Part shown: positions 68 through 12,658 of the stretch, one piece after another
Numbering within the stretch: position 1 is the first letter of the stretch
Layout of the letters: every line of letters starts with the position of its first letter
Assembly: GCA_020161505.1 (NCBI GenBank)
Contig: JAIUNY010000014.1
Location: forward strand, 1-64,000
DNA length: 64,000 bases
Direction of reading: 5' to 3'
Source: Armatimonadota bacterium
GTDB taxonomy: Bacteria > Armatimonadota > Fimbriimonadia > Fimbriimonadales > Fimbriimonadaceae
Made by a program: the position numbers and the translations under genes
Notes under the pieces: model-generated
What the model was told of the DNA's origin: nothing
The model's input: the letters and a program-made list of their open reading frames with translations, nothing else
Databases searched by the model: none

Positions 68-1096
68 TCACGGTTGGTAAGGCAAATAGGTTTCCGCGTC
101 GCCCCGGATCACACGCGCCAGCAGACGCGCCTGGACATGAGGAAGCAGGCCGATAGGAACTTTCTCCTTGAACAATGGATGCCGGACTTCCTGATGCTTG
201 CGTGTTTGATACGCGGTCAGGAGAATCTTGCGCCCCTCATCGGTGAGCAACACGCTGCCCCCGTCTCGGGGCATAAAGTGATCGGCTTGGAGCTGCTTGC
301 GGTTCACCAGGCTCAGGGCTAGGCGGTCGAGGATGACGGCACGAAACTCCTCGACGAGATCGAGCGCGAGCGCGGGGCGCCCGGGTCGAGCCACGTGGAG
401 GAATCCGAATTGAGGATCCAGACCTACACCCTCAAGGGCAGCGACGCAATCGGTGGTGCCGAGACTATAGAGGAATGAAAGGAGGCAGTTGATGCGATCT
501 CTGGGCGGGCGACGGGAGCGACCGCTGAATCCGAAATCGGTCTTTTGAGAAGTGATGAGGTGGTCAAACACGTTAAAGTACGATTGTGCGGCGGTACCTT
601 CGTGGCCTCGGATTTCGTCGATCGTTGGAACCGTTGCGAGGTCGGCAAGAGCTTTCTCGTGGACTTCGATGGCCAACGTGATGCCTTCGCGCAACGGTTC
701 TCGGGAATCTCTCCGACCTCGGAGCAGCACTTGTCGAGCGTTTTGGAGCTTGCCAGCAACCATCTGACGCGCGATTTCGGTAGCGATGATGGGCTCGCGG
801 TGGCACTCGTATTGATCCCGGCGAAGGTAGACGTTTCCGCTTGTTTTGCCGACGACCCGCGCTCGGAATCGGCCCATCTCATTGAGGAAAACAACCGCCC
901 GACCATCATCGGCGCATCGCATGAGCAGAGGGCCACTGAGGGTAACAAGTCCAAAAAAGGTGATTGATCCGAGGTGATGGAGCGGCACTTGGAGCAGCTT
1001 TTCGCCTTCTAGCTCGACCCTCACTTGGTCATTTTCGAGCCTGAGGTACGCACCTTGCGTCCCTACGAACAGCGTGTTGAGTAGAATCTTGGTCAT
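68..1096 (-). CDS. cas1: Cas1, CRISPR spacer integrase (type I-C)
   Basis: Cas1 is the metal-dependent integrase that inserts new spacers together with Cas2. The 342-residue product has the usual length and layout: an N-terminal beta domain (MTKILLNTLFVGTQGAYLRL) and a helical catalytic domain. The metal-site segments are visible as EIARQMVAGKLQNAR, the conserved GHEGTAAQSYF segment, and FLHVARPGRPALALDLVEEF. I chose the ATG at 1096 because its first bases overlap the cas4 stop as ATGA. An upstream in-frame extension would run into cas4 and has no Cas1 similarity. Identity is certain from the motifs and the neighbours. Confidence 0.96.
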   Translation of the reverse strand: MTKILLNTLFVGTQGAYLRLENDQVRVELEGEKLLQVPLHHLGSITFFGLVTLSGPLLMRCADDGRAVVFLNEMGRFRARVVGKTSGNVYLRRDQYECHREPIIATEIARQMVAGKLQNARQVLLRGRRDSREPLREGITLAIEVHEKALADLATVPTIDEIRGHEGTAAQSYFNVFDHLITSQKTDFGFSGRSRRPPRDRINCLLSFLYSLGTTDCVAALEGVGLDPQFGFLHVARPGRPALALDLVEEFRAVILDRLALSLVNRKQLQADHFMPRDGGSVLLTDEGRKILLTAYQTRKHQEVRHPLFKEKVPIGLLPHVQARLLARVIRGDAETYLPYQP

Positions 1097-1713
1097 GGCA
1101 GGTCGGCCTCGGTGCGGGGTTGGAAGGGGCTGACTTTCTGGCTTTCTGCAGCGGTGAGGGCTTGGGGTAGGCAGGCATCGATGAGCGAGCACTTGAAGCA
1201 CCGGCGATCCCACCTCACCTCCGGGAGCACTCCGGATTCGATGGAAGCGCGGATTTCGGCGATGGCTTGAACGGTTTGTGAACGCAGATCAGCCGTCAGC
1301 TCCACGGTTTGCCTTTGTCTTGTCTTGATGAAATACAGCGCGCCTTCGGGGATCGCCTGGCCGAACATCTCTTCCAGACACAGCGCTTGGGCGCAGAGTT
1401 GGAGGGAGGCATGGACGGCCTGCGAGCCATCGCCGATTTTGTACTCGATGGGAGTGATTTTCCCGTTCCGAAACTCGACGGCGTCGGCCTTACCGGTGAG
1501 CCCGTGTACTTCCGACCAGAGGGGGAGGGCGCGCTCGACACGCGCTCCCCGTTCAGAACGCGTGACTGGCTCATCCACCCTCTCGTGGGCGATTTGCCCA
1601 CGGAGGGTGAAGAGATTTTCGTCCCACACGTGCTCGATATGGATCAGGCCGCACTGGCGTGGGCAATAGCTCCAGTGTTCCAGGGCACTGATCAGGATCG
1701 GCTCTGGATGCAT
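1093..1713 (-). CDS. cas4: Cas4, PAM-selecting nuclease of CRISPR adaptation
   Basis: The 206-residue protein is a RecB-like Cas4. It trims prespacers and helps choose PAM-proximal ends for Cas1-Cas2. An N-terminal cysteine (YCPRQC, about residues 16-21) and a C-terminal cluster (CFKCSLIDAC) would hold the iron-sulfur cluster. The nuclease core shows H (AHERVDEP), D (GKADAVEF) and the E-x-K pair in PIEYKIG. The start lies 11 bases after the cas7 stop, and the stop overlaps cas1 as ATGA, so the genes are translationally coupled. Confidence 0.95.
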   Translation of the reverse strand: MHPEPILISALEHWSYCPRQCGLIHIEHVWDENLFTLRGQIAHERVDEPVTRSERGARVERALPLWSEVHGLTGKADAVEFRNGKITPIEYKIGDGSQAVHASLQLCAQALCLEEMFGQAIPEGALYFIKTRQRQTVELTADLRSQTVQAIAEIRASIESGVLPEVRWDRRCFKCSLIDACLPQALTAAESQKVSPFQPRTEADLP

Positions 1714-1724
1714 GGTTTGTCAGG

Positions 1725-2639
1725 CTAGTCGAGGAGGCAGTGCAAGGTGACCCCGTTGGGCAAGTTCGCGGGGGCTTGTACCTCTTGGTAGTCGGAGAAA
1801 GCTCGGATCGGTTTGCTCGGATCCTTAGCCTTGAGCTGGTCTTGGATCGTGTCGAACAATCGGCCTGACGGAGCGTTTCCGAGCTTGTTCTCGTGAGCGA
1901 AGACGTACACCTGCCGGAGTCGCATATCGCCCCGCGCAGCAGAATGGTCGTGCTCGAACATGTTGGTGACCGCTTGCCAGAAGATTTCCAGGTCTTCTTT
2001 GGTCACGCCGGTTCCGCGCGGGCCGGTGCCAAGAGACGGCGAGTAGAAGCCTTTGCCCACGTAGAGGCCGTAGGGCACGACCGATTTGCGGCCCATCTCG
2101 GTTTCCTTATTTTCGCCTTCCTTGGTGATCGCGACTCGGGTGATGGAGACGTCGCTAGCAATGATGGGATCAACCGATCGTGAGAACGTGAGTTGCATCG
2201 GCCCGCGGACTTGCCCGCAGTTGATTTCTCCGGTGGAGAGGACGCCTCCGAACATACGGACGTCGAAGTAGCGGCGGCACATCTCGGCGCGGCCTTTGTC
2301 GTTGGTGGTTTTCACCTTTTTTTCGGCGACGGTTTCTCCCACGGCGAGTGCGGCGGCCTTGATTTTTGTGTTGAGGGCGATGCTGCTGTCGCGCACGAAG
2401 ATCCCGTAGCCGTCGGCTTGATCCACCTCATCAAAATTGTCCGCGTGGTGGAGCTCGATGAAGTTTCTGATTTTGCGCTTCAGGCAGACGTCGGTGACAA
2501 TTCCCTGCATCGTCTCGGGGTCGAGGCGGGGCATGTTACCGGCATCAGGATCGCCGTTCGGGTTTCCGTCGGTGACATCGAAGACGAGGAGAAAGTCGTA
2601 GCGCTTTTCGGGGTTGGTGATTTCGGGTGAGATATTCAT
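1725..2639 (-). CDS. cas7: Cas7 (Csd2), backbone subunit of the type I-C Cascade
   Basis: The 304-residue protein starts with the Csd2 signature: KRYDFLLVFDVTDGNPNGDPD is split over about residues 12-32 and is followed by the glycine-rich loop RLDPETMQG. Several copies form the filament that holds the crRNA guide. The segment after residue 115 (RRYFDVRMFGGVLSTG) is also typical of type I-C Cas7. The ATG directly abuts the cas8c stop codon with no spacer, so expression follows cas8c in one operon. Confidence 0.95.
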   Translation of the reverse strand: MNISPEITNPEKRYDFLLVFDVTDGNPNGDPDAGNMPRLDPETMQGIVTDVCLKRKIRNFIELHHADNFDEVDQADGYGIFVRDSSIALNTKIKAAALAVGETVAEKKVKTTNDKGRAEMCRRYFDVRMFGGVLSTGEINCGQVRGPMQLTFSRSVDPIIASDVSITRVAITKEGENKETEMGRKSVVPYGLYVGKGFYSPSLGTGPRGTGVTKEDLEIFWQAVTNMFEHDHSAARGDMRLRQVYVFAHENKLGNAPSGRLFDTIQDQLKAKDPSKPIRAFSDYQEVQAPANLPNGVTLHCLLD

Positions 2640-3056
2640 TTAGTTGTTCCCCTCGGGGGAGTCAGAGGCCGCGTCGGCCTTAGCGTCTCGCTTTGCGATG
2701 GCGGTTTCGATGTCGTGGCTCTTTTGTTGATAGAAGCCGAGGCTGAATATCGCTTGCTGTTGCAGACTCAAGGTTCTCGGAAACTCTGAGCCGAGGGCCG
2801 AGAGCACTTCGCTGAGCTGCTTCTCAAAGATCGTGTGCATCCCGCCTTTCTCTTTGCGGATCTTTGGCATGTGGGAGCGCGTGGCGTTGGTGAGCAGTGT
2901 GCCAAAAACCGATGCAGGACTGGCGCATGCTGCTCCGTAGTGGCGATCGACGACCGTGGCATTGAGCCCGGAAATCGCGTTTTTCTGGATCGATTCCAGG
3001 ACGGCGAGCAGTCGCCCGCAGTGATACGCAGGCTCTGGGTGGGTGGGATTGAGCAT
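2640..3056 (-). CDS. cas11c: Predicted Cas11c, small Cascade subunit from an internal start in cas8c
   Basis: Type I-C Cascade needs a small subunit that is translated separately from the 3' end of cas8c; this is established for other I-C systems. An in-frame ATG at codon 496 (MLNPTHPEP) would give a helical protein of 138 residues, about the right size. A purine-rich AAGAAGAG stretch sits about 6 bases before it and could bind the ribosome, though it is not a strong Shine-Dalgarno sequence. The exact start is a guess based on size and this stretch. Confidence 0.4.
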   Translation of the reverse strand: MLNPTHPEPAYHCGRLLAVLESIQKNAISGLNATVVDRHYGAACASPASVFGTLLTNATRSHMPKIRKEKGGMHTIFEKQLSEVLSALGSEFPRTLSLQQQAIFSLGFYQQKSHDIETAIAKRDAKADAASDSPEGNN

Positions 3057-4541
3057 TTTGAACTCTTCTTTTCTTTGGGGGTTTTCGAGTAGTTCCGCTT
3101 GAAGGAGGGGATCATCGAGAAGGGCGGCTTTGATGAGAGCCATCCGTGCGTGCGCGAGGCCCTTTCCGCCGCCCTTGAACACGGTGTAAGGGCCTTGCAT
3201 GGCAAGATTCCGCTTGACAGCAAGCCCAAGAATAGAACTCGGCATGGGTCGCCCGAGGAGGGCGCACCATGCCAAGGTGTTGGTCACGTGGGCCGGGATG
3301 TCTTTGGCCTCTCGGTAGAGCGAAGTAGCCAGTTGATAGAGCGAGTGGCGTTTTGGGTGTCCCGCCAGACTCAACTTCTCGAACCAAGCCTCGCGCCGCT
3401 CGATGAGATCGCCTAGGGTCATGGTGTGGAAATCCCGCACGATGATGCGCGCGGCATTCGCACTCAAGGCAAGCATGTAGAAATGCTCTGCTTCGATTTC
3501 CTGCGGAATCATGGCAGGGGCGAGACGGATCGCTCTCGTGCGACCTGCCTTGTCGGTGGTCGTGTTGAACAAGTCTCCCTGGAGACCCACGCTCGTGATT
3601 TGCCCTTTGCTCTTTCCGGCTTCTTTGATGCCCCGTACACGGGCGATTTCTCGAAGTTCCGCCTCGTCCAAGTCGTCATCGCCCGCGTCTGCATTGTCGG
3701 GGTCGAGAATGGCCCGGATCTGTCCTTTGCCAGCATCTACGCGTGACCATCCGACAAAGGCGACTTTTCCAACCTTGACAGTGTAGATGAGTTCGTCACC
3801 GAGCCGTTCGCTGAGGAGGTGGTTTAGGGCATTTCCGATTTTTTCTCCAGCGTCGGGTGAGATCGGAGAATTGTAGGCTGCTTCCAGGCCATAGCTATTG
3901 CCAGCCGTGAAGTTGACACTCACCAGGGCGGTTCCCGACATTTGCCCATCGGGAATACCTCTGATCATGGCGGGCATTCGCTCCAGAATCGGCCCCTCGA
4001 TCCCCGTGACAAGACAGGTGCCCCGCTCTGGGGTGTCAGTTTGATTGGCCCACCAAGTCCGCACTTCGGGCAACTCGGTCACAATTTGTCCGCTCACGCT
4101 GATCGTGAAGTAGTCGTCTGGCTGAAGCGATGAATCCTGCGCGAGCTGCGTTGGCCCATCATTGCGTACCCAAGCTGCAACAGCCTGGACTTCGGGGTTA
4201 TCAATTTCGGCCGCGCACGTTAACACGCTCTCGCGCCATGCTTCGTGCCTGAGCCTGACCTTCGATTGATCGGCACCTTCAAAGACCTTTCCAAGAAGGT
4301 ATTCGCAGTTGTCTGCAAAGGGCCGCGCTCGAATGCCGCTGGCTCGGCGAGGAGCCTCTTGAGGTTCGTGGCGATTTTCTCCATCACGTTTTCCCCGTTT
4401 ATCCTTGGAAAGCTGAATAAGGCGAGCGCTCTTTACTTCCCGATCTAGCTCAACTACCTTAGTGACAAACTGCGGCTGATACCCGCTGGGAATGGAAGCC
4501 CCGAGCGTTTCCGCGAACTCCACCAATCGGTTGAGAATCAT
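2640..4541 (-). CDS. cas8c: Cas8c (Csd1), large subunit of the type I-C Cascade
   Basis: The 633-residue protein has the length and position of Csd1/Cas8c, which recognises the PAM and helps recruit Cas3. Recognisable Csd1 segments include CLVTGIEGPI near residue 175, SVNFTAGNSYG near residue 207, and the helical C-terminal third. In type I-C systems the small subunit Cas11c is made from an internal start within this gene; see the separate entry. The start overlaps the cas5 stop by four bases (ATGA). The final 20 residues are charged and probably disordered. Confidence 0.93.
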   Translation of the reverse strand: MILNRLVEFAETLGASIPSGYQPQFVTKVVELDREVKSARLIQLSKDKRGKRDGENRHEPQEAPRRASGIRARPFADNCEYLLGKVFEGADQSKVRLRHEAWRESVLTCAAEIDNPEVQAVAAWVRNDGPTQLAQDSSLQPDDYFTISVSGQIVTELPEVRTWWANQTDTPERGTCLVTGIEGPILERMPAMIRGIPDGQMSGTALVSVNFTAGNSYGLEAAYNSPISPDAGEKIGNALNHLLSERLGDELIYTVKVGKVAFVGWSRVDAGKGQIRAILDPDNADAGDDDLDEAELREIARVRGIKEAGKSKGQITSVGLQGDLFNTTTDKAGRTRAIRLAPAMIPQEIEAEHFYMLALSANAARIIVRDFHTMTLGDLIERREAWFEKLSLAGHPKRHSLYQLATSLYREAKDIPAHVTNTLAWCALLGRPMPSSILGLAVKRNLAMQGPYTVFKGGGKGLAHARMALIKAALLDDPLLQAELLENPQRKEEFKMLNPTHPEPAYHCGRLLAVLESIQKNAISGLNATVVDRHYGAACASPASVFGTLLTNATRSHMPKIRKEKGGMHTIFEKQLSEVLSALGSEFPRTLSLQQQAIFSLGFYQQKSHDIETAIAKRDAKADAASDSPEGNN

Positions 4542-5158
4542 CGGAGCACCTCGCGGGGATCGGGGAGAGAGAGGATGCCTTGCTCCAGCCTGGCCTCGAA
4601 GAACATCGGACGGATGCGCTTTTTGTCGGCATAGTTCATATCGAAGAGCATCCGGCCGAGGTCGCGGTCTTCCTGGATGGGCGTTTCGCCGGGGCGCACT
4701 GGCCCGAACTCGGCAGCGAATTCACGACAACCCAGTGCTGGCCTGTGGAAGCACTGGCCTTTCTCGACCCGGTCGCGGAACTGAGCGCGGAACTTGGCGT
4801 GGTCCTCTGTCACGCCGGGGCGGACGTTGGCATCGGCGTAGATCTCGTACGCGACATCACGCAGGAGCACGCTGTGTCGCTGCATCCGGTCATGGTCGGC
4901 GTAGTAGGGCTCCGTGCGGCTGGGTGACATCTTGCTGGCCACCTCATTGCGGAAGATGCCCGTTGTTTGGATGGGTCGGAGGACGCGGATCTCTCGGATG
5001 ACCCAGTCGAACTGGGGATGCCAGTAGATGGCCTCTAAGATTCCCCTTGCCGCCGACGGAGTGATCACCTCGTAGGTGACGCGCTCCGCCTTCGATTCAG
5101 GGCGGGTGAAGAGGGCAAAATCGCCGCTCACCCGTACGGATATATAGCGTTCATTCAT
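4538..5158 (-). CDS. cas5: Cas5c (Csd5), crRNA-processing endonuclease of type I-C
   Basis: In type I-C systems Cas5 replaces Cas6: it cleaves the repeat RNA and stays on the 5' handle of the crRNA. The 206-residue product shows the Cas5d-type beginning (ISVRVSGDFALFTRPE), followed by ERVTYEVITPSAARGILEAIYW. Its C-terminus reads MLFDMNY...RPMFFEARLEQGIL, with a glycine-containing loop. No clear Shine-Dalgarno sequence precedes the ATG. The gene has its own promoter about 80 bases upstream and begins a tight run cas5-cas8c-cas7-cas4-cas1-cas2. Confidence 0.94.
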   Translation of the reverse strand: MNERYISVRVSGDFALFTRPESKAERVTYEVITPSAARGILEAIYWHPQFDWVIREIRVLRPIQTTGIFRNEVASKMSPSRTEPYYADHDRMQRHSVLLRDVAYEIYADANVRPGVTEDHAKFRAQFRDRVEKGQCFHRPALGCREFAAEFGPVRPGETPIQEDRDLGRMLFDMNYADKKRIRPMFFEARLEQGILSLPDPREVLR

Positions 5159-5238: not shown

Positions 5239-5267
5239 ACTCTACCGTGGTTCGGCGTGACTGTCAA
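5239..5267 (-). promoter_or_regulatory. Promoter of the cas5-cas8c-cas7-cas4-cas1-cas2 operon
   Basis: On the minus strand a perfect -35 hexamer TTGACA (5262-5267) is followed after exactly 17 bases by TAGAGT (5239-5244), a good -10 match. It points at cas5, leaving an untranslated leader of about 75 bases. A terminator-like hairpin lies just upstream, so the downstream cas genes appear to be transcribed independently of cas3. Confidence 0.7.
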
Positions 5268-5301
5268 GGGGGTTATAGAGGGAATTTTTTTGAGACGGTG
5301 G

Positions 5302-5355: not shown

Positions 5356-5583
5356 TTACATGTGGCGATCGAGGTAGCGGTCGTTCATTACGTGAGCTTT
5401 CGTACAGGCCTCATGAAATGTCCGCATTCGGAGGAGCCGGAGGACCCGAAACAAACCAAAAGCCTCCACGAGGAACGCCAGAAGCGACTCGAAGAAGCGG
5501 TAGTCGGTCACCGGGATGTAGTAGCGAGCGCCAGAGGCGGCGCGAATGACGATAATTGCGGGAGACAAGGAGTCTGTCTTCAT
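5356..5583 (-). CDS. Small hypothetical protein (75 aa) inside the cas3-cas5 gap
   Basis: I do not recognise a family. The peptide has a beta-rich start (AIIVIRAASGARYYIPVTDY), a hydrophobic helix (FFESLLAFLVEAFGLFRVLRLL) and a basic tail. It is read in the same direction as the cas genes. Its ATG overlaps the stop of a shorter ORF as ATGA, and it ends just before a terminator hairpin. There is no convincing Shine-Dalgarno sequence. Its place downstream of a promoter with a crRNA-like target site makes it a possible CRISPR-controlled product, but it could equally be non-coding. Confidence 0.35.
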   Translation of the reverse strand: MKTDSLSPAIIVIRAASGARYYIPVTDYRFFESLLAFLVEAFGLFRVLRLLRMRTFHEACTKAHVMNDRYLDRHM

Positions 5584-5681
5584 TTTCTTGGTTTCGTAGT
5601 AGACTCCGGATAGCTCAGCTTCTCGAAGTCTGGGTCGTGGGTGGTGGCGGTTGAACTTTGCAGGCTTTTCCGCCCCACCAT
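5580..5681 (-). CDS. Very small ORF (33 aa) coupled to the 75-residue ORF
   Basis: The peptide begins MVGRKSLQSS and ends ESTTKPRK. It is hydrophilic and has no recognisable domain. Its stop overlaps the next ATG as ATGA, the coupling seen between the real cas genes, which is the only argument for translation. The start lies inside the spacer-like part of the crRNA-like element, so it may simply be chance. Confidence 0.2.
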   Translation of the reverse strand: MVGRKSLQSSTATTHDPDFEKLSYPESTTKPRK

Positions 5682-5717
5682 TATTCTCGTTAAGGGTTAC
5701 ATAACGGTTTCAATCCT
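5640..5717 (-). ncRNA. crRNA-like RNA with degenerate I-C repeat end (CreA/CreR-like)
   Basis: On the minus strand GGATTGAAAC (5716 to 5707) equals the 3' end of the type I-C repeat, which supplies the 11-base 5' handle of a crRNA. The bases that follow (from 5706 downward, beginning CGTTATGTAAC) would be the guide. The guide matches the promoter just upstream at positions 1-5, 7-11, 13-15 and 17-18. After the guide a 10-bp hairpin with one bulge (GGTGGGGCGG with CCGCC-A-CCACC, 5640-5679) could protect the 3' end. No second repeat is visible. Known CreA and CreR RNAs have the same layout. Expression and processing by Cas5 are inferred. Confidence 0.6.
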
Positions 5718-5734
5718 AGTCGCTGGCGGAGCAT
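5690..5734 (-). CDS. CreT-like mini-ORF in front of the crRNA-like element
   Basis: A Shine-Dalgarno-like AGAGGAG (5738-5744) is followed after only three bases by ATG and a 14-codon frame, MLRQRLGLKPLCNP. The frame includes CGA, CTA and TTA codons, which should be uncommon in a genome this GC-rich. The ribosome site and start lie in a perfect 14-bp palindrome (GGAGCATATGCTCC, 5728-5741). Characterised CreT toxins are short RNAs with a strong ribosome site and rare codons that trap tRNAs. Position and form fit, but toxicity is pure inference. Confidence 0.35.
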   Translation of the reverse strand: MLRQRLGLKPLCNP

Positions 5735-5763
5735 ATGCTCCTCTAGACAACTCGACGTGCATC

Positions 5764-5808
5764 ACTGTACCCCGGATTCCTTTGTTTGTCAAGTGTTACT
5801 TAACGGAA
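5764..5808 (-). promoter_or_regulatory. Promoter with overlapping self-target protospacer and TTC PAM
   Basis: The minus strand carries TTGACA (5787-5792), a 17-base spacer and TACAGT (5764-5769), 25 bases after the cas3 stop. Overlapping the -35 element is a protospacer-like stretch that begins CGTTAAGTAAC at 5805 and is preceded directly by TTC (5806-5808), the established type I-C PAM. The crRNA-like guide 90 bases downstream matches 15 of its first 18 bases. Cascade bound here would block RNA polymerase. An alternative reading is a repeated operator, because GTTA-N2-TAAC occurs at both sites. Confidence 0.65.
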
Positions 5809-5816
5809 AAGTAAAT

Positions 5817-8063
5817 TCAGAAAACCAGGGCTCCGGGTTCAACCGCGCCTAGATTCAGCCCAGTCTCTTCCGAATACTGGCCCTCGGCGAAGACGAGCAC
5901 GGGCATGCCGGATTCGTGCATCTCGACCACCCCCGTGCGAACCAACTCGGCCAGCTTCTCGCGCGGAACGGTGACCATGAAGGGCTGGAGAACCCGAAAC
6001 CAGCGACGGGGAGATGTGCGATCCCAAAGCGTATCGATAGCGGCACGAGCATCGGCGGACTCATCGATCAAGCCTGGGCTCAGCCGATTCACATAGTCGG
6101 GCAGTGCGCGGTGCGGAACCAGAATCGACTCAGAAATCTCGTCGATCATCTTGAACTCGGCGGCGACTTGCGAGAATCGCAGAAGCCGCTGCATCGTCAG
6201 GATGTCATTCCTCTCGGTGCCCGTGTTGGTTCGGCTGAAATACATGCGCCAGTACGCCCGGCCCGCCGCCTCCGAGTCGAATGGCTGTAAGGTTTGGTCG
6301 TCGACAACTCCATGCGTGGCATCAATCCCCGTTTTGTAGGCTCCGCCGGGTGCCTTACCTTCTTCAAGTTTGAACACTATCACCTCGCCCAACGTCTCAC
6401 GGAGACCCTCTCGATTACACCTCCCTGCCGCCTGGATCACACGATCGAGCGGACCGAAAGCGCGCAGAACGGTGGGGAAATCTACATCAACGCCGGCTTC
6501 CACGACTTGAGTACTGATGAGCCGAATCGTGTCTCCTGATCTCAATCGGTCCCTCGCCTCTGCCAGAATCCTCCGCCTGTCGAACCCGCACAGATTGGTG
6601 CTGAGGTGCATCACACCGGGAACGTCCTCCAACATTCGAGTCAGTTCCACCGCCTCACCTCGCGTGTTCAGAATCGCGAGCACCTGGTCTCGACTCCGAA
6701 TCTCGTCAGCTAAGCGATCCTTCGACCAGGTCTCCTCAGGAAACGTGAACTCAACGCGTCGAAGAGCGGCGAAGTGATCCTGATAGTTCGGCACGATCTC
6801 TTTCGCCTTCACGTCCTTGCCGAGTGCTTCCCAAATGGGGTCGAAATCGGGCTGGGTCGCGGTGCACATCACCACCGAGCATCCGAAATGTGTCACTAGG
6901 AGCCAGAGGCAGTTGAGGATCGGCCCGAGGCGACACGGCGGAAGAGTTTGCACCTCGTCGAGGATAATCACGCTCCGCGCGATGTTGTGGAGCTTGCGGC
7001 ACGCCGCCGGGCGGTTGCTGAAGAGGCTCTCGAACAACTGCACCGTGGTGGTGATGATAAGGGATTCATCCCAGTTTTGCGCCGCGTTGGCCTGACGCCG
7101 ACCGCTTGATTCTTGGGCAGCTGCATCGGCGATGTCCTTATCGGATCCGAATTCCCGTGGCATCAGGGCGGAGTGGTGGTCAAGCAGGGCATCTTCGCCA
7201 AAGGTCTCGCGGCAGACTTGCGCGGTTTGCTCGATGATGCTGGTGTAGGGGATCGCGACGATCACTCGGTCGAGCCCGTGCTGGGCGGCGTGTTCGAAGG
7301 CAAAGCTCAGCCCAGAGAGGGTTTTTCCACCTCCCGTTGGCACCGTAAGGGTGAAGAATCCTGGGGTCTCCATTGCCGCCGTTCGGCATGCCTCAAGAAC
7401 CTCCGCGCGGATCTGATTTGTAGTGGTTCCCTCCAATCCCCGCTCTCGGATTTGCGTGGCTTTTTCCGACATGTGGGCTCGGAGTTGTCCGGCGTACTCG
7501 GAGATCGGCTGGAAAGCACCTCGAAAGTCGCGAGCGTCAGGCTGATCGAATGCTTCGGAGTCGAGGCGATCTGCGTCGATGAGAGCGCTGAAGACCATGC
7601 GGATGAGTACTTCGCGTTGCACAGTGTCTGGCGCGGCCCATCTTGGCCACTTCGCAGAGGGCAAATCAAGGTCGAGGGATCGACTGAGAAACTCTCGCGC
7701 CGGCTCGAAGGCAGTTAAATGCATGGCCTCCTTCACGAGGGAGTCAGGGCCATCCCAATTCGGCATCCCTGCGTGGTGGCCCATGATGATCGGAGCGAGA
7801 TCGCCCAGGATTTCGGCCGCCGCAGCCGCGCCGGGGTAAGCATGACCACCGACGTGCTTTCCCTTGGCGTCCTTGGGGCGGCGGATGAAATCCTGGAATT
7901 TGGGATCTGCTTTCCCAATATCGTGGAGAATCCCACAGAGGTATCCCAACTCGCCTGCCCCAAATTTCTGACTGAAAGCTCTGGCAAGATCGGCCACCCC
8001 CTTCAAGTGGTCGATCAGCGGCTGCTCGCCGTGTTCATTCCGATGCGCGATGAGCGGATACAT
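5817..8063 (-). CDS. cas3: Cas3, HD nuclease-helicase of the type I-C system
   Basis: Cas3 degrades the DNA bound by Cascade. The N-terminal HD nuclease shows H in IDHLKGVADLA, HDIGK near residue 48, and a HH pair in IIMGHHAGM. The helicase part shows Walker A TGGGKT, the DEVQ box, TATQ, VVEAGVDVDFP and the arginine-finger motif QAAGRCNREG. I chose the ATG at 8063 (MYPLIAHRNE) because AGGA lies 5 bases upstream of it; a TTG five codons earlier is possible. At 748 residues it is full length, with a C-terminal accessory domain. It is separated from cas5 by the regulatory cassette. Confidence 0.95.
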   Translation of the reverse strand: MYPLIAHRNEHGEQPLIDHLKGVADLARAFSQKFGAGELGYLCGILHDIGKADPKFQDFIRRPKDAKGKHVGGHAYPGAAAAAEILGDLAPIIMGHHAGMPNWDGPDSLVKEAMHLTAFEPAREFLSRSLDLDLPSAKWPRWAAPDTVQREVLIRMVFSALIDADRLDSEAFDQPDARDFRGAFQPISEYAGQLRAHMSEKATQIRERGLEGTTTNQIRAEVLEACRTAAMETPGFFTLTVPTGGGKTLSGLSFAFEHAAQHGLDRVIVAIPYTSIIEQTAQVCRETFGEDALLDHHSALMPREFGSDKDIADAAAQESSGRRQANAAQNWDESLIITTTVQLFESLFSNRPAACRKLHNIARSVIILDEVQTLPPCRLGPILNCLWLLVTHFGCSVVMCTATQPDFDPIWEALGKDVKAKEIVPNYQDHFAALRRVEFTFPEETWSKDRLADEIRSRDQVLAILNTRGEAVELTRMLEDVPGVMHLSTNLCGFDRRRILAEARDRLRSGDTIRLISTQVVEAGVDVDFPTVLRAFGPLDRVIQAAGRCNREGLRETLGEVIVFKLEEGKAPGGAYKTGIDATHGVVDDQTLQPFDSEAAGRAYWRMYFSRTNTGTERNDILTMQRLLRFSQVAAEFKMIDEISESILVPHRALPDYVNRLSPGLIDESADARAAIDTLWDRTSPRRWFRVLQPFMVTVPREKLAELVRTGVVEMHESGMPVLVFAEGQYSEETGLNLGAVEPGALVF

Positions 8064-8100
8064 TGTCTTCCTGTCCAATTGCTTTCTCTAGGCTGAGCTT

Positions 8101-8215: not shown

Positions 8216-8322
8216 TCACTCTACCAGTCTCGCTCTTGCCCGGACGTTTTAGCACTGGCCGCCGAGGCCAATGGAAACGAAGACATCACTCTACCAGTCT
8301 CGCTCTTGCACGGACGTTTTAG
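8216..8322. repeat. Two copies of a 37-bp repeat with CRISPR-like spacing
   Basis: The units at 8216-8252 and 8286-8322 begin TCACTCTACCAGTC and end GGACGTTTTAG. They differ at a single position (C at 8240, A at 8310) and are separated by 33 unrelated bases. Repeat and spacer lengths both fall in the CRISPR range. The sequence does not resemble a type I-C repeat and has only a weak stem (GTC-CG with CGGAC). It may be a two-repeat mini-array, a remnant of another CRISPR type, or a local duplication next to the RHS fragment. Confidence 0.5.
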
Positions 8323-8336
8323 GGCTCGCCCGGCTA

Positions 8337-9946
8337 ATGGCGGGTAATCAGACCACCGTGCAGAATGCTCGGGGCTTCATCTCGACATCGGTCTACGCCA
8401 CCAACTCTAACCGACAGATTGCCAGCCAAGATGCCCTCGGTAATCGAACGACCATGACCTTCAACATGGCCGGCGAGCAAACCCAGGTTCAGGATGCGCG
8501 TGGATCTGTCACCACCTACGCCTATGATCTTGCCGGACGGCTTCGAACCGTGCAAGAACCCACGGGCGGCGTGACCACCTACGCCTACGACGCAGCAGGC
8601 CGGCAAGTATCGATCACCGATGCGCTTGGACGAATCTCGACCACCCTCTACGATGCGGTTGGCCAAGCCACGACCATGATCTCGCCGCTGGGCGCGTGGT
8701 GACCATGCAGAATGCCCTTGGCTTCATCACCACCTATGCCTACGATCCCGTGGGCAACAACACCACCATCACTAACGCTCGCGGAGTGAACACGGTGAGC
8801 ACCTATGATGCGGTGGATCAGCTCACGGCGACTACCGATGGCCTCGGGCACCGAACCACCTATTCCTACGACCCCACCGGGAACAACACGGTCATCCTGG
8901 ATGCCCGGGGTGGGCGAATCACCATGGCCTACACGGCTCGCGGTGAGATGGATGTCATCCAGAACCAACTCGGGCAAGCCACCACCTACACCTTCCTCCC
9001 CACCGGAGAAACCGAGTCTCGCCGGTTCCCGAATGGAGACCGCACCACCTACACGTATGATGCAGTGGGTCGGCTGGTCACCACGGTCTATGCCGATGGA
9101 ACCAGGGTCACCTTTGGCTATGATGCCACGGGCAACCGCACGACCATGGTGGATTCCACCGGAACCACCACCTATGCCTACGATAACCTGGGCCGCCTGA
9201 TTGACAAAACCGATCCCGGAGCTCTGCGCCAGCAGTATTCCTACGATCTCGCCAGCCAGCGCACCAAACTCATCGATCCGGATGGAGGCGTGCGAACGTT
9301 CCAATATGATGCCGATGGGCGTATGACCACGCTTGTCACGGGCAAAGGGACAACGACGTATACCTTCGATAATGCCGGGCGGCAGGTGAATAATCGACTG
9401 CCGAATGGCATGAGCGAGCAAACCAGCTACGATGCTGTAGGTCAGGTAACACTTCGCACCTTTGCCAACATCATCCGAACCACCTACACCTACGATTCCG
9501 TCGGGAATACAGAGAGTATTCGAACATTCAATGGTCGGGTGAAGACCTTTACCTACGACAATGCCGACAGGCTCACTCGTCAGCAGACATCGGGAGCATC
9601 GACTGTGGGATACACCTACACCTATGACTCTGTTTATAACCGAACTTACTCAACCGAGTGGGATGCACCGACCACGACGTCTTATGATCTCGCCGGAAGA
9701 GCCACCACCATGGCTTATGGCGCGACCCGAACGACCTACACCTACGATGACAATGGCAACCTCACCAAGATTGTTGGCTTCGAGCCACCAACCGGAACCG
9801 TTGCCATCACCACCACGATGACCTACGATATGGAAAACCGGATGAAAGTTCTTGAACACAATGGAGCCAAAACCACTTATACTTATGACGGTGATGGTCT
9901 GAAGCGGAGCGAGAGTGTCTCGGGAACTATGACGACTGCGCAGTGA
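8337..9946 (+). pseudogene. YD-repeat (RHS family) protein fragment, frameshifted and truncated
   Basis: The region encodes about 25 tandem YD repeats of roughly 20 residues (for example TTYAYDPVGNNTT, TTYTYDAVGRLV). RHS proteins are large secreted shells, often carrying a C-terminal toxin. No signal peptide or N-terminal part is present, since the similarity starts abruptly after the second 37-bp repeat. Near 8695 the frame breaks: the first frame ends at a TGA in PLGAW and the repeats continue in another frame from a GTG at 8696. The end lacks the conserved RHS core boundary and any toxin domain. It is most likely a decayed piece of a larger gene. Confidence 0.75.
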
Positions 9947-9986: not shown

Positions 9987-10790
9987 TTACCGCGGATTCA
10001 CCTCGCGGATCTCGCCCAGTAGCCTCCTCGCCTCGATCTGGGCGCTTGGTGGGATATCTTCGAGTTCTCCGGTGATGCCGGCAACTTGGCTGTAGGTGCT
10101 CGTCACCGCATCCAGCAGAGCCTGGCGCGCTCCGACCACCTCGGCCAGCGCCCGTTGGAGTCGCCAGCGACGATCAAGGCATGAGAGCCCGTACGCTCTC
10201 CCCAAGGCTTCATCGCTCCGCATCTGATCCAGGTCGGCCGCAGGCTCCATAAAGATGCGCTGCTCCTGAATAGTGGTGCTGGGATCGGACAGGGCTTCGA
10301 TGAGCAGCCGAAGACATTCCTTGGCTTTGAAATACTGCTCCACACTCAGCTCCGCTGGTGGAATCAGGGCTTCGTCAATCTTGGGCCCGGTCAGCCCCAC
10401 CACTTGCACCGTCCACCGCCCTTCAATCTGTCCAATCTCGGCAGAAGCGGCAAGGAACGGCAGCGAGAGCTTCGCATTCGCCTCAAGACGATTCACGGTA
10501 ACCGCCAGCCGGATCGTGTACCCAATATATTCCACGCCTCCCGCGACGGGCTGCTTGCGATAGGCCCGCCGCTCGAGCACCACGACCCGCTTGCTTGCCC
10601 CGCCCGAAACCGTCCCCATCACGGGAACATTGAGGGATTGAGCCGCCGTGATCGTGAGTTCGTACGACGAACTCTCGATGAACGGGTAAGGGCTTGGGCT
10701 TCTGAGGCCAGCTCCGCTCGGGCGATCCGGCGACGGCTGAAGATCATTCAAGCCGCGCAGGAGTTGGTGAACAAGAATCTCGCTATTCAT
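9987..10790 (-). CDS. Unknown 267-residue protein coupled to the hydrolase-caspase gene
   Basis: I do not recognise a family. The N-terminal helix (SEILVHQLLRGLNDL) and a proline-rich linker lead to a probable beta-rich domain at about residues 42-135 with alternating strands (RVVVLERRAYRK, YIGYTIRLAVTV, WTVQVVGLTG). A helical C-terminal half of about 110 residues follows. There is no signal peptide or clear membrane segment. The ATG overlaps the stop of the caspase gene as ATGA, so it is co-translated. As the last gene of the operon it could be the substrate or effector of the protease. A longer upstream frame lies inside the caspase gene and was not used. Confidence 0.75.
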   Translation of the reverse strand: MNSEILVHQLLRGLNDLQPSPDRPSGAGLRSPSPYPFIESSSYELTITAAQSLNVPVMGTVSGGASKRVVVLERRAYRKQPVAGGVEYIGYTIRLAVTVNRLEANAKLSLPFLAASAEIGQIEGRWTVQVVGLTGPKIDEALIPPAELSVEQYFKAKECLRLLIEALSDPSTTIQEQRIFMEPAADLDQMRSDEALGRAYGLSCLDRRWRLQRALAEVVGARQALLDAVTSTYSQVAGITGELEDIPPSAQIEARRLLGEIREVNPR

Positions 10791-12658
10791 TCGGGTGTGT
10801 CCTTTTTGCTGATCGATCGGGAGTCTCCAAACTGGAAGAAGTCGGTGACTCGTTGCTCCAGAAGTGTCTTCGGCCCAGCGACCTCCGGGTCTTGGGCGTA
10901 GTTCAGTCGCTTGAGCTGCGTCTTGATCCGGCCCACCATCGCGTCGATGGATGTGCTGGGCTTCTCGGCCAAAATCTCTCGAAGCGTGCGCGTGAAGGCA
11001 TAGGTGAAGACGCCATAAGTGATGCTGCCATGCAGATATTCGCTCGCGAGCTGATCCGCCCGGCACGCCTGGAAGACAACCGGTATGAATGGTCCATCGT
11101 GACCCTTGCTGGATCGCGTTTGCTCAAACGCGGCGCGCTTGCCCCGGGCAGCATAGGCTCTTCCCAGGCGATAGACGTTGCCCTCTTCGCCTACCATCGC
11201 GTGCTGGAGCTTCTTGCTCCGGGCAAACTTGCTGTTCTGCGGATCAATCGCGACCGGCTTTCGCGGAACCCACATCTGTTCGCGCTTATCCCACTGGAGG
11301 CTTTCATGCCGCAGGTCGTCAGGCGGGGGAACCCCGCGCACTTGCGCCCCGACACTTCGCCATACCCCGCCGGAGTGACAACAGTCCAGCAGCATCACAA
11401 AGTTCACCCCGTAGGGCAGATCCGCGTAAAGCTGCACAAGGCTGGAGTCGGAAAGCATCGTCGGCGGAGTCCAATCGCAGTCGTAGGGGATCAGGCACTC
11501 CATATGAGCTTCTGGCATCCCGTCATGGCCTCTCGGCGTGATCTGGGCTCCATGCCCGCTGAAGGCAAAGAAAAGCGTGTCGCCCGGCATAGCCTCATCA
11601 AAGAGCCAGCGCAGCCGCTCGATAATCCCCCTGGAGGTCGCGTGCTGGTTGAACAGAGCCCGGATATCCTGAGGGGCAAATCCGCACTCTTGGAGCGTCG
11701 CGCTGAGTTCAAACTGATCGTTCACGCATCCCTTCAGATTGCTGATCCCGTCTTGGTATTGATCAATCCCGACGAGCACCGCGCGGGTTCGGGGTTTGCG
11801 GGTTTCTCGCACCGTCTCCGCTACTGGCGAGAATAGCTGAGATCCACCATGCTTCAAAGCATCGACTCCGATCGCGTTCCGTGCAAAGGTTCGAATCGCG
11901 GCGGGGCTTGGTTGCTCCTCAGAATCAAGCATCTTCTGGAGCATCGGAAGCAATGTTGACCTTGTGCTGTCGTGGCCAAGATAGAACTCAGCCTCGTGGT
12001 TGAAGGGCGATGGTGAATCAAACTCCGTCGCCAGCTGCAGGAAGTCGCCTTCGCCGGCCGGATGCAAGGACTTGGTGAAGACCCGATCTTGCCGGTTGAA
12101 GAGGTTGACCCACGTGCCTTGAAGAGTAACAATCCGCCCGCCAAACGCAGCTCGGACGGCTGGGTGACCAATTTGCGAGCCATAGGTGATATACAGTCGC
12201 CCATCGAGCAGACTCCGGTGCTTTGTCTCGGAGAACGTATCGTAGGAAATGAGCGACCCAAGGCTATGGCCGATGATCACCTTCGGATCGTGCTCCTCTA
12301 TCGCGGTACGCAACCGTTCCTGGAGTTCCGCCCGCAGATCCGGAAGCGCCGCCCACTGGGCGATCATGCCAACCGTCCATCGAAATGTGGGACTCCAGCC
12401 TCCCCGATCCCGACTCACGCCCAGGAAATCCTCGAGACCATATTCCATCAGGGAGTCCAGAAGCTGGCGCCCGCCTCGGAAAACGATTGCCGGATTGAAT
12501 TCAGCATCCCGGAAGAGATCATCGTAGGCGAACGAGAACACGCTTGGCCGGATCCCGAGATGCTCAACCGCTTGGTGGACAAGCCTTGTCTGGGCATCCT
12601 GCCAATCCGGCTCCTTTTCTGGGTTTCCGACGCCGTGGAGGTAAAGGATATCTGCCAT
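10787..12658 (-). CDS. Alpha/beta hydrolase - metacaspase fusion protein
   Basis: Two enzymes are joined in 623 residues. The first 250 residues form an alpha/beta hydrolase: LHGVGNPE opens the fold, GHSLGS holds the nucleophile (Ser132), and NRQDRVF offers the acid. From about residue 290 a caspase-like (peptidase C14) domain begins with RAVLVGIDQY. It has catalytic His369 in FSGHGAQ and Cys427 in LLDCCHSGG, both intact. The N-terminal part suggests a lipase or esterase. Start and stop overlap the neighbours (TGATG before, ATGA after), so the three genes form one coupled operon. A role in regulated cell death or phage defence is inferred from context. Confidence 0.88.
   Translation of the reverse strand: MADILYLHGVGNPEKEPDWQDAQTRLVHQAVEHLGIRPSVFSFAYDDLFRDAEFNPAIVFRGGRQLLDSLMEYGLEDFLGVSRDRGGWSPTFRWTVGMIAQWAALPDLRAELQERLRTAIEEHDPKVIIGHSLGSLISYDTFSETKHRSLLDGRLYITYGSQIGHPAVRAAFGGRIVTLQGTWVNLFNRQDRVFTKSLHPAGEGDFLQLATEFDSPSPFNHEAEFYLGHDSTRSTLLPMLQKMLDSEEQPSPAAIRTFARNAIGVDALKHGGSQLFSPVAETVRETRKPRTRAVLVGIDQYQDGISNLKGCVNDQFELSATLQECGFAPQDIRALFNQHATSRGIIERLRWLFDEAMPGDTLFFAFSGHGAQITPRGHDGMPEAHMECLIPYDCDWTPPTMLSDSSLVQLYADLPYGVNFVMLLDCCHSGGVWRSVGAQVRGVPPPDDLRHESLQWDKREQMWVPRKPVAIDPQNSKFARSKKLQHAMVGEEGNVYRLGRAYAARGKRAAFEQTRSSKGHDGPFIPVVFQACRADQLASEYLHGSITYGVFTYAFTRTLREILAEKPSTSIDAMVGRIKTQLKRLNYAQDPEVAGPKTLLEQRVTDFFQFGDSRSISKKDTPE

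Follow-up and report, generated by a model that had tools for sequence, protein, structure and literature searches.

The gap between cas3 and cas5c of the type I-C locus in the window, i.e., the whole stretch of 64 kb analysed here, carries a degenerate CRISPR repeat (psi-repeat) and, directly after it, a guide whose PAM-flanked match lies over a promoter in the same gap. It is highly probable that this element is an autorepressor of the CreR/CreA type, guided to its own promoter by Cascade. This is a real type I-C version, so far apparently undescribed, of a known principle of CRISPR self-control, because a dozen loci in several phyla keep the layout with differing, self-matching sequences.

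The cas locus lies on the minus strand at the start of the window and is of type I-C, with Cas3, Cas5c, Cas8c, Cas7c, Cas4 and Cas1 all encoded (Table 1). No cas6-like gene was found among the cas genes; on its cas2 side, the locus is truncated by the contig start, which is window base 1. The gap between cas3 and cas5c measures 658 bp. Read in the direction of the cas genes, it holds the TTC motif, the target, promoter P1, the psi-repeat, the guide, a 3' stem-loop, an ORF of 75 aa, a second promoter P2 and cas5c. Arrays were located by pattern search; that of this genome holds more than 40 copies of the repeat GTCGCTCCCGGCCTAACCCCCGGGAGAGGATTGAAAC and sits at the beginning of a separate contig, C1. 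Two further observations concern the neighbourhood. RHS/YD-repeat ORFs are located on the opposite strand directly upstream of cas3 (8271-9946, +), and a 623-aa protein near the cas locus (10787-12658, -) has a lipase-like N-terminus followed by a caspase-like motif (GHGA...DCCHSGG), which on reading the sequence makes it a possible defence or cell-death gene.

Table 1. Features of the type I-C locus and of the element in its cas3-cas5c gap (window positions).
Feature	Position	Strand	Remark
cas3 (I-C)	5817..8078	-	upstream neighbour of the element
TTC PAM of the target	5806..5808	-	
Target (protospacer)	5774..5805	-	CGTTAAGTAACACTTGACA...; overlaps -35 box of P1; seed 1-5 and 7-11 matches guide 10/10
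Promoter P1	5764..5792	-	TTGACA-17-TACAGT
Degenerate CRISPR repeat (psi-repeat)	5707..5756	-	GTCG start, stem-loop, 11-nt handle AGGATTGAAAC (5717-5707) at the end
Guide (psi-spacer)	5680..5706	-	CGTTATGTAACCCTTAACGAGAATAAT; length judged from the hairpin behind it
3' stem-loop	5640..5679	-	GGTGGGGCGG...CCGCCACCACC; fold z -2.3
Small ORF, 75 aa	5356..5583	-	downstream of guide; candidate cargo, possibly degraded
Second promoter P2	5239..5267	-	TTGACA-17-TAGAGT; directly upstream of cas5
cas5c	4538..5158	-	crRNA-processing and Cascade subunit of I-C; downstream of the element
cas8c (Csd1)	2640..4541	-	
cas7c (Csd2)	1725..2639	-	
cas4	1093..1713	-	
cas1	68..1213	-	

In type I-C systems, crRNAs are cut by Cas5c, and their 5' handle is eleven bases long. 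Of the array repeat, the psi-repeat retains four bases at the start (GTCG) and eleven at the end, while the stem-loop between them is longer and stops directly before the handle (fold z -1.5, weak evidence when taken alone). An earlier note on this DNA had read a lone I-C repeat 3' end followed by a guide, and the repeat end GGATTGAAAC is indeed found at 5716-5707 on the minus strand. The same note had regarded an array repeat with an unlike 3' end as refuting; the repeat on C1 ends exactly in AGGATTGAAAC. The handle thus agrees in all 11 bases with the 3' end of the I-C array repeat of this genome and fits the cognate effector, as in CreR. The 3' stem-loop behind the guide is likely the 3' end feature of a crRNA-like RNA, and similar hairpins occur in the loci G063 (z -5.5), G018 (z -2.1) and L146 (z -3.1). 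A search of Rfam gave no match.

The guide begins with CGTTATGTAAC at 5706-5696 (written CGTTATGTAACCC... from 5706) and lies 99 bp downstream of its target, which starts with CGTTAAGTAAC (5805-5795) directly after the TTC. Both the position of the target next to TTC and its overlap with the TTGACA of a promoter with 17-base spacing had been claimed before, and both hold. The same is true, letter by letter, of the pairing pattern: guide and target agree at positions 1-5, 7-11, 13-15 and 17-18, with mismatches at 6, 12, 16 and 19. Positions 6 and 12 are those expected to stay free in type I Cascade. Promoter sites like P1 were seen twice, compared to 0.3 expected in shuffled sequences.

A chance origin of the match was rejected on three grounds: its uniqueness in the genome, its uniqueness in the window, and the rate at random positions. 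CGTTANGTAAC has exactly two copies in the 3.14 Mb genome, and these are the guide and the target of this element. In the 64 kb window, the threshold of 8 of 10 seed matches next to a TTC or TTT is reached by the cognate target alone. At random positions, a PAM-flanked match was obtained in 26 of 6900 cases under a criterion looser than the 10/10 of the window. By arithmetic with equal base use, about 4e-5 TTC-flanked 10/10 matches are expected within 700 bp on both strands.

The earlier note had also suggested looking for the same layout in related genomes. Searches with Cas8c and Cas5c in Armatimonadota, public genomes and Chloroflexota led to about 120 distinct I-C loci. In twelve of them, including the window, a handle is followed by a guide that matches a nearby PAM-flanked site. 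The eleven others stem from Armatimonadota, Chloroflexota, one Gammaproteobacterium and one Bacillota (G063, G018, G050, G137, G230, two G169 loci, L148 from Oscillochloris, L156 from the Gammaproteobacterium, G570, and L168 from Heyndrickxia acidiproducens). The PAM is TTC in nine of the twelve and TTT in three. Guides are unrelated between loci, and agreement is limited to guide and target within one locus. For example, guide TAGAAcGCATGa and target TTC-TAGAAaGCATGg of G063 have the pattern TAGAAnGCATG in common; in G018, ACAGCtCTGTtTGCAGAA and TTC-ACAGCaCTGTgTGCAGAA share ACAGCnCTGT, and in G050, ATTTAcATGAAt and TTC-ATTTAgATGAAg share ATTTAnATGAA. Across ten loci, the matches per position from 1 to 19 amount to 10, 10, 10, 9, 10, 1, 10, 9, 10, 10, 8, 4, 6, 6, 6, 6, 5, 3 and 1. 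The unpaired position 6 is therefore a recurring trait (10 of the 12 loci), and position 12 is free less sharply. Positions 13-17, which were left out of the hit selection, still show 29 matches out of 50 in the ten loci, with about 12 expected.

In the genomes checked, the local handle and the array repeats have the same final 10-11 bases, and most also agree in the variable base at -11 (A or C). The association with the gap was evaluated on 81 distinct loci with cas3 upstream of cas5. Of the 19 whose gap measures 150 bp or more, 11 have a lone handle in it; among the 62 with a smaller gap there is none. When the handle was not required, the guide-target search returned mostly the same loci together with chance-like matches. 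The recurring layout, the locus-specific agreement of guide and target, the possession of own handles and the association with the gap make an operator or chance very unlikely. Judged from sequence, the co-variation and the array-matching handles give strong support to the proposal that a crRNA-like RNA guides I-C Cascade to its own promoter.

Some loci deviate from this picture. A stem next to the handle does not reach significance in each locus. No close relative conserving the guide of the window was found, with I-C cas8 in 0 of 7 sampled congeners. For the gap handles in G021 and L116, no target was found. In the G021 locus (L058), the handle lies 93 bp upstream of cas5, matches the genome's repeat and is followed by a guide and a strong 3' hairpin, with no clear target. 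In L116, from Dehalococcoidia, a mini-array near 3887 directly upstream of cas5 has two handle-like ends about 48 bases apart.

From the sequence parts, the handle identity, the guide-target agreement and the co-variation across loci, all of which are observed, we infer the RNA and repression steps of the following model. P1 would transcribe the degenerate repeat, the guide and the 3' stem-loop. Cas5c would cut this transcript at the foot of the repeat stem and thereby produce an RNA that consists of the 11-nt handle AGGAUUGAAAC and the guide, which would be loaded into Cas5c-Cas8c-Cas7c. The loaded I-C Cascade would bind the TTC-flanked target over the -35 box of P1 with about 15 base pairs, skipping positions 6 and 12, and would block RNA polymerase. 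This pairing is presumably too short to license Cas3, and cutting would be absent. Loss of Cascade, its titration by array crRNAs or its inhibition by an anti-CRISPR would de-repress P1. As a result, the small ORF would go up and, by read-through presumably extending past P2, so would cas5-cas8-cas7-cas4-cas1.

Which genes the repressed promoter would serve was judged by position. The target lies over the -35 box in the window, in the promoter in G063, G018 and G230, and just downstream of the promoter in G169 and L148. In G169, L148 and L156, the last with its element upstream of cas7-cas5, the leader alone separates the element from the Cascade genes. By position, the promoter should therefore belong to the Cascade genes, which makes these loci CreR by layout. 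Because of these three loci, the autorepressor is favoured over the toxin, the two options that the earlier note had left side by side. In L168 (1283-1768; H. acidiproducens DSM 23148), a lone I-C repeat precedes its target, which is in the leader of cas3, by 472 bp. Positions 1-12 of its guide match the TTC-flanked site, which is on the opposite strand, and the candidate for the repressed promoter adjoins the cas genes by position, as in the three loci above. This element is thus a candidate CreR in a cultured strain of the Bacillota. In the window itself, P1 is followed by the small ORF, P2 and cas5. No seed match of the guide was found at P2, which may serve cas5 independently. Since cas5 has this promoter-like sequence without a matching target, control by P1 may bear on the small ORF more than on the Cascade genes.

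The small genes lead to the strongest rival explanation, a fail-safe similar to CrePA. Repression would be the same, and the selected function would be the silencing of the small gene, such that an anti-CRISPR acting on Cascade releases a harmful protein. As in CrePA, a protein gene follows a CreA-type repressed promoter in several loci: a small gene of variable kind lies between guide and cas5 in about seven. It codes for an HNH nuclease in G230 and an HTH_3 protein with a sub-threshold YdaS-toxin match in G137; a gene for an 84-aa HNH endonuclease-like protein was also noted in L085 (ORF 83-338 bases after the guide, before cas5). The 146-aa protein of L146 (2559-2996), without family assignment, resembles one of L054 near 4728-4919 (48% identity over 64 aa) and may be nuclease-like, given its D...EAE pattern. 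A further family of about 75-83 aa without a name comprises similar proteins in G018 and G050 (E about 5e-6) and a weaker member in G063, whose ORF overlaps the cas5 start. All of these could be CreP-like cargo. In addition, the separate P2 before cas5 in the window would make the Cascade genes independent of the repressed promoter. However, three loci have no such small gene, and none of the small proteins resembles KilA-N, the reviewed CreP type, in place of which we find HNH, HTH, proteins without assignment, or no gene at all.

The window ORF itself also speaks against a fail-safe of this kind. It lacks the KilA-N domain, which is typical of CreP though not a strict feature, and has no match in PHROGs or PADLOC and no significant one in Pfam. 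With the other genes in this slot it shares only the position and a short N-terminal likeness, and it may be degraded. Its GC content by codon position (0.57/0.39/0.71) resembles that of the cas genes. For its relative in G018, AlphaFold gave a model of poor quality (pLDDT 60). Its end (5356-5419) reads MNDRYL... and resembles the start of cas5 (MNERY and MNDRL in relatives), which may be a relic of an earlier junction with cas5. Together with the P2 region (5239-5271), it may point to an insertion or an exchange of cassettes by which cas5 lost its link to the repressed promoter. Altogether, a selected function in silencing the small gene seems rather unlikely to us, while cargo control of this kind is compatible with autorepression and possible alongside it. 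We are similarly doubtful, without dismissing the idea, about a merger of CreR and CrePA, in which Cascade would silence itself and an exchangeable small effector (HNH, HTH/YdaS-like or unnamed) in one operon. If this were true, disabling Cascade would at once boost Cascade synthesis and release a fail-safe protein, and the I-C loci of several phyla would share a switch guided by RNA, in which the place between guide and cas5 is a slot for exchangeable cargo.

A small RNA toxin (CreT) is improbable as the product under repression, in contrast to the CreTA modules of I-B haloarchaea and I-F Acinetobacter. The degenerate repeat, the seed 1-5 and 7-11, the TTC PAM and the layout with an autoregulated operon promoter are common to both, and I-F CreTA is also located in the gap between cas3 and the effector genes. 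Moreover, AGGAG-N3-ATG with a 14-codon ORF does occur between promoter and guide, as the earlier note had stated for its ribosome site and mini-ORF. This ORF, probably not a true gene, is the repeat hairpin itself and runs through handle and guide. The psi-repeat has its first base at 5756, within a few bases of the predicted transcript start of P1, which leaves no room for a creT, and in the window no gene intervenes between the repressed promoter and the creA-like part. The leaders of G063 and G018 (about 35 nt) are too short for a known creT as well. Unlike in CreTA, no sign of an RNA toxin was seen.

That the two GTTA-N2-TAAC sites are operators to which a protein binds, with a repeat end that is there by coincidence, has very little probability left. 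The sequence GTTA-N2-TAAC forms a palindrome, and dyad symmetry beyond chance is seen in the targets of the window (5795-5812; TTACTT-N7-AAGTAA) and of G063 (GCTTTCTAGAAAGC), in these two loci only, whereas 6 of 11 tested targets have no dyad above chance level. The target differs in every locus and yet matches the sequence that immediately follows the local handle, and position 6 stays free; on this ground, the operator was rejected. Hardly any weight remains for an array relic or a solitary repeat acting as RNA anti-CRISPR (Racr) without regulatory target: single degenerate repeats are known as array relics and as phage-borne Racrs, one of them a mimic for I-C, but the present element resides inside a host cas locus, is tied to the cas3-cas5 gap, and in most loci has a guide with a PAM-flanked seed match in its own promoter.

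The preferred reading, a Cascade-guided autorepressor, is in good agreement with known systems. CreA of type I-B autoregulates its own promoter; there, positions 1-5 and 7-11 are paired and the PAM is TTC (PMC8501985). The I-C Cascade of Neisseria lactamica represses promoters without Cas3, and a single repeat-spacer unit is enough, in Neisseria as well as in E. coli (PMC10865793). CreR has been reported for I-B, I-E and V-A and responds to the crRNA level and to anti-CRISPRs (reviews PMC12737573, PMC13131331). With CreR, the element shares the repeat-like nature, the location in a cas locus, partial complementarity of the guide to a site with a PAM in or near the promoter upstream of the cas genes, and autorepression by the Cas effector, which is a prediction in our case. 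In contrast to CreR, for which the types are taken from review, it belongs to type I-C, relies on Cas5c in the absence of Cas6, and is located between cas3 and cas5. It often consists of one repeat plus a 3' hairpin, and in many loci a small gene stands between guide and cas5.

CreR is reportedly termed cas-regulating RNA by Liu et al. 2023 in Cell Host Microbe. Shmakov et al. 2023 in NAR are said to describe standalone repeats or mini-arrays, mostly of type I, that target cas promoters, reportedly with the same general concept of crRNA-like regulatory elements in cas loci. In the literature covered, which does not extend to these two most relevant surveys, we met no I-C case of such RNA-guided self-control (CreR: I-B, I-E, V-A; CreTA: I-B, I-F), in line with the earlier note, which knew of no described I-C example.

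From a biological point of view, RNA-guided self-control of CRISPR effectors would be extended to a subtype that lacks Cas6. The dozen natural guide-target pairs indicate which positions matter: 1-5 and 7-11 are paired, 6 and 12 are free, and the tail is weak. Anti-CRISPRs against I-C are predicted to de-repress these loci, and H. acidiproducens provides a cultured organism in which the element can be tested. The small genes of the cas3-cas5 gap are candidate fail-safe effectors.
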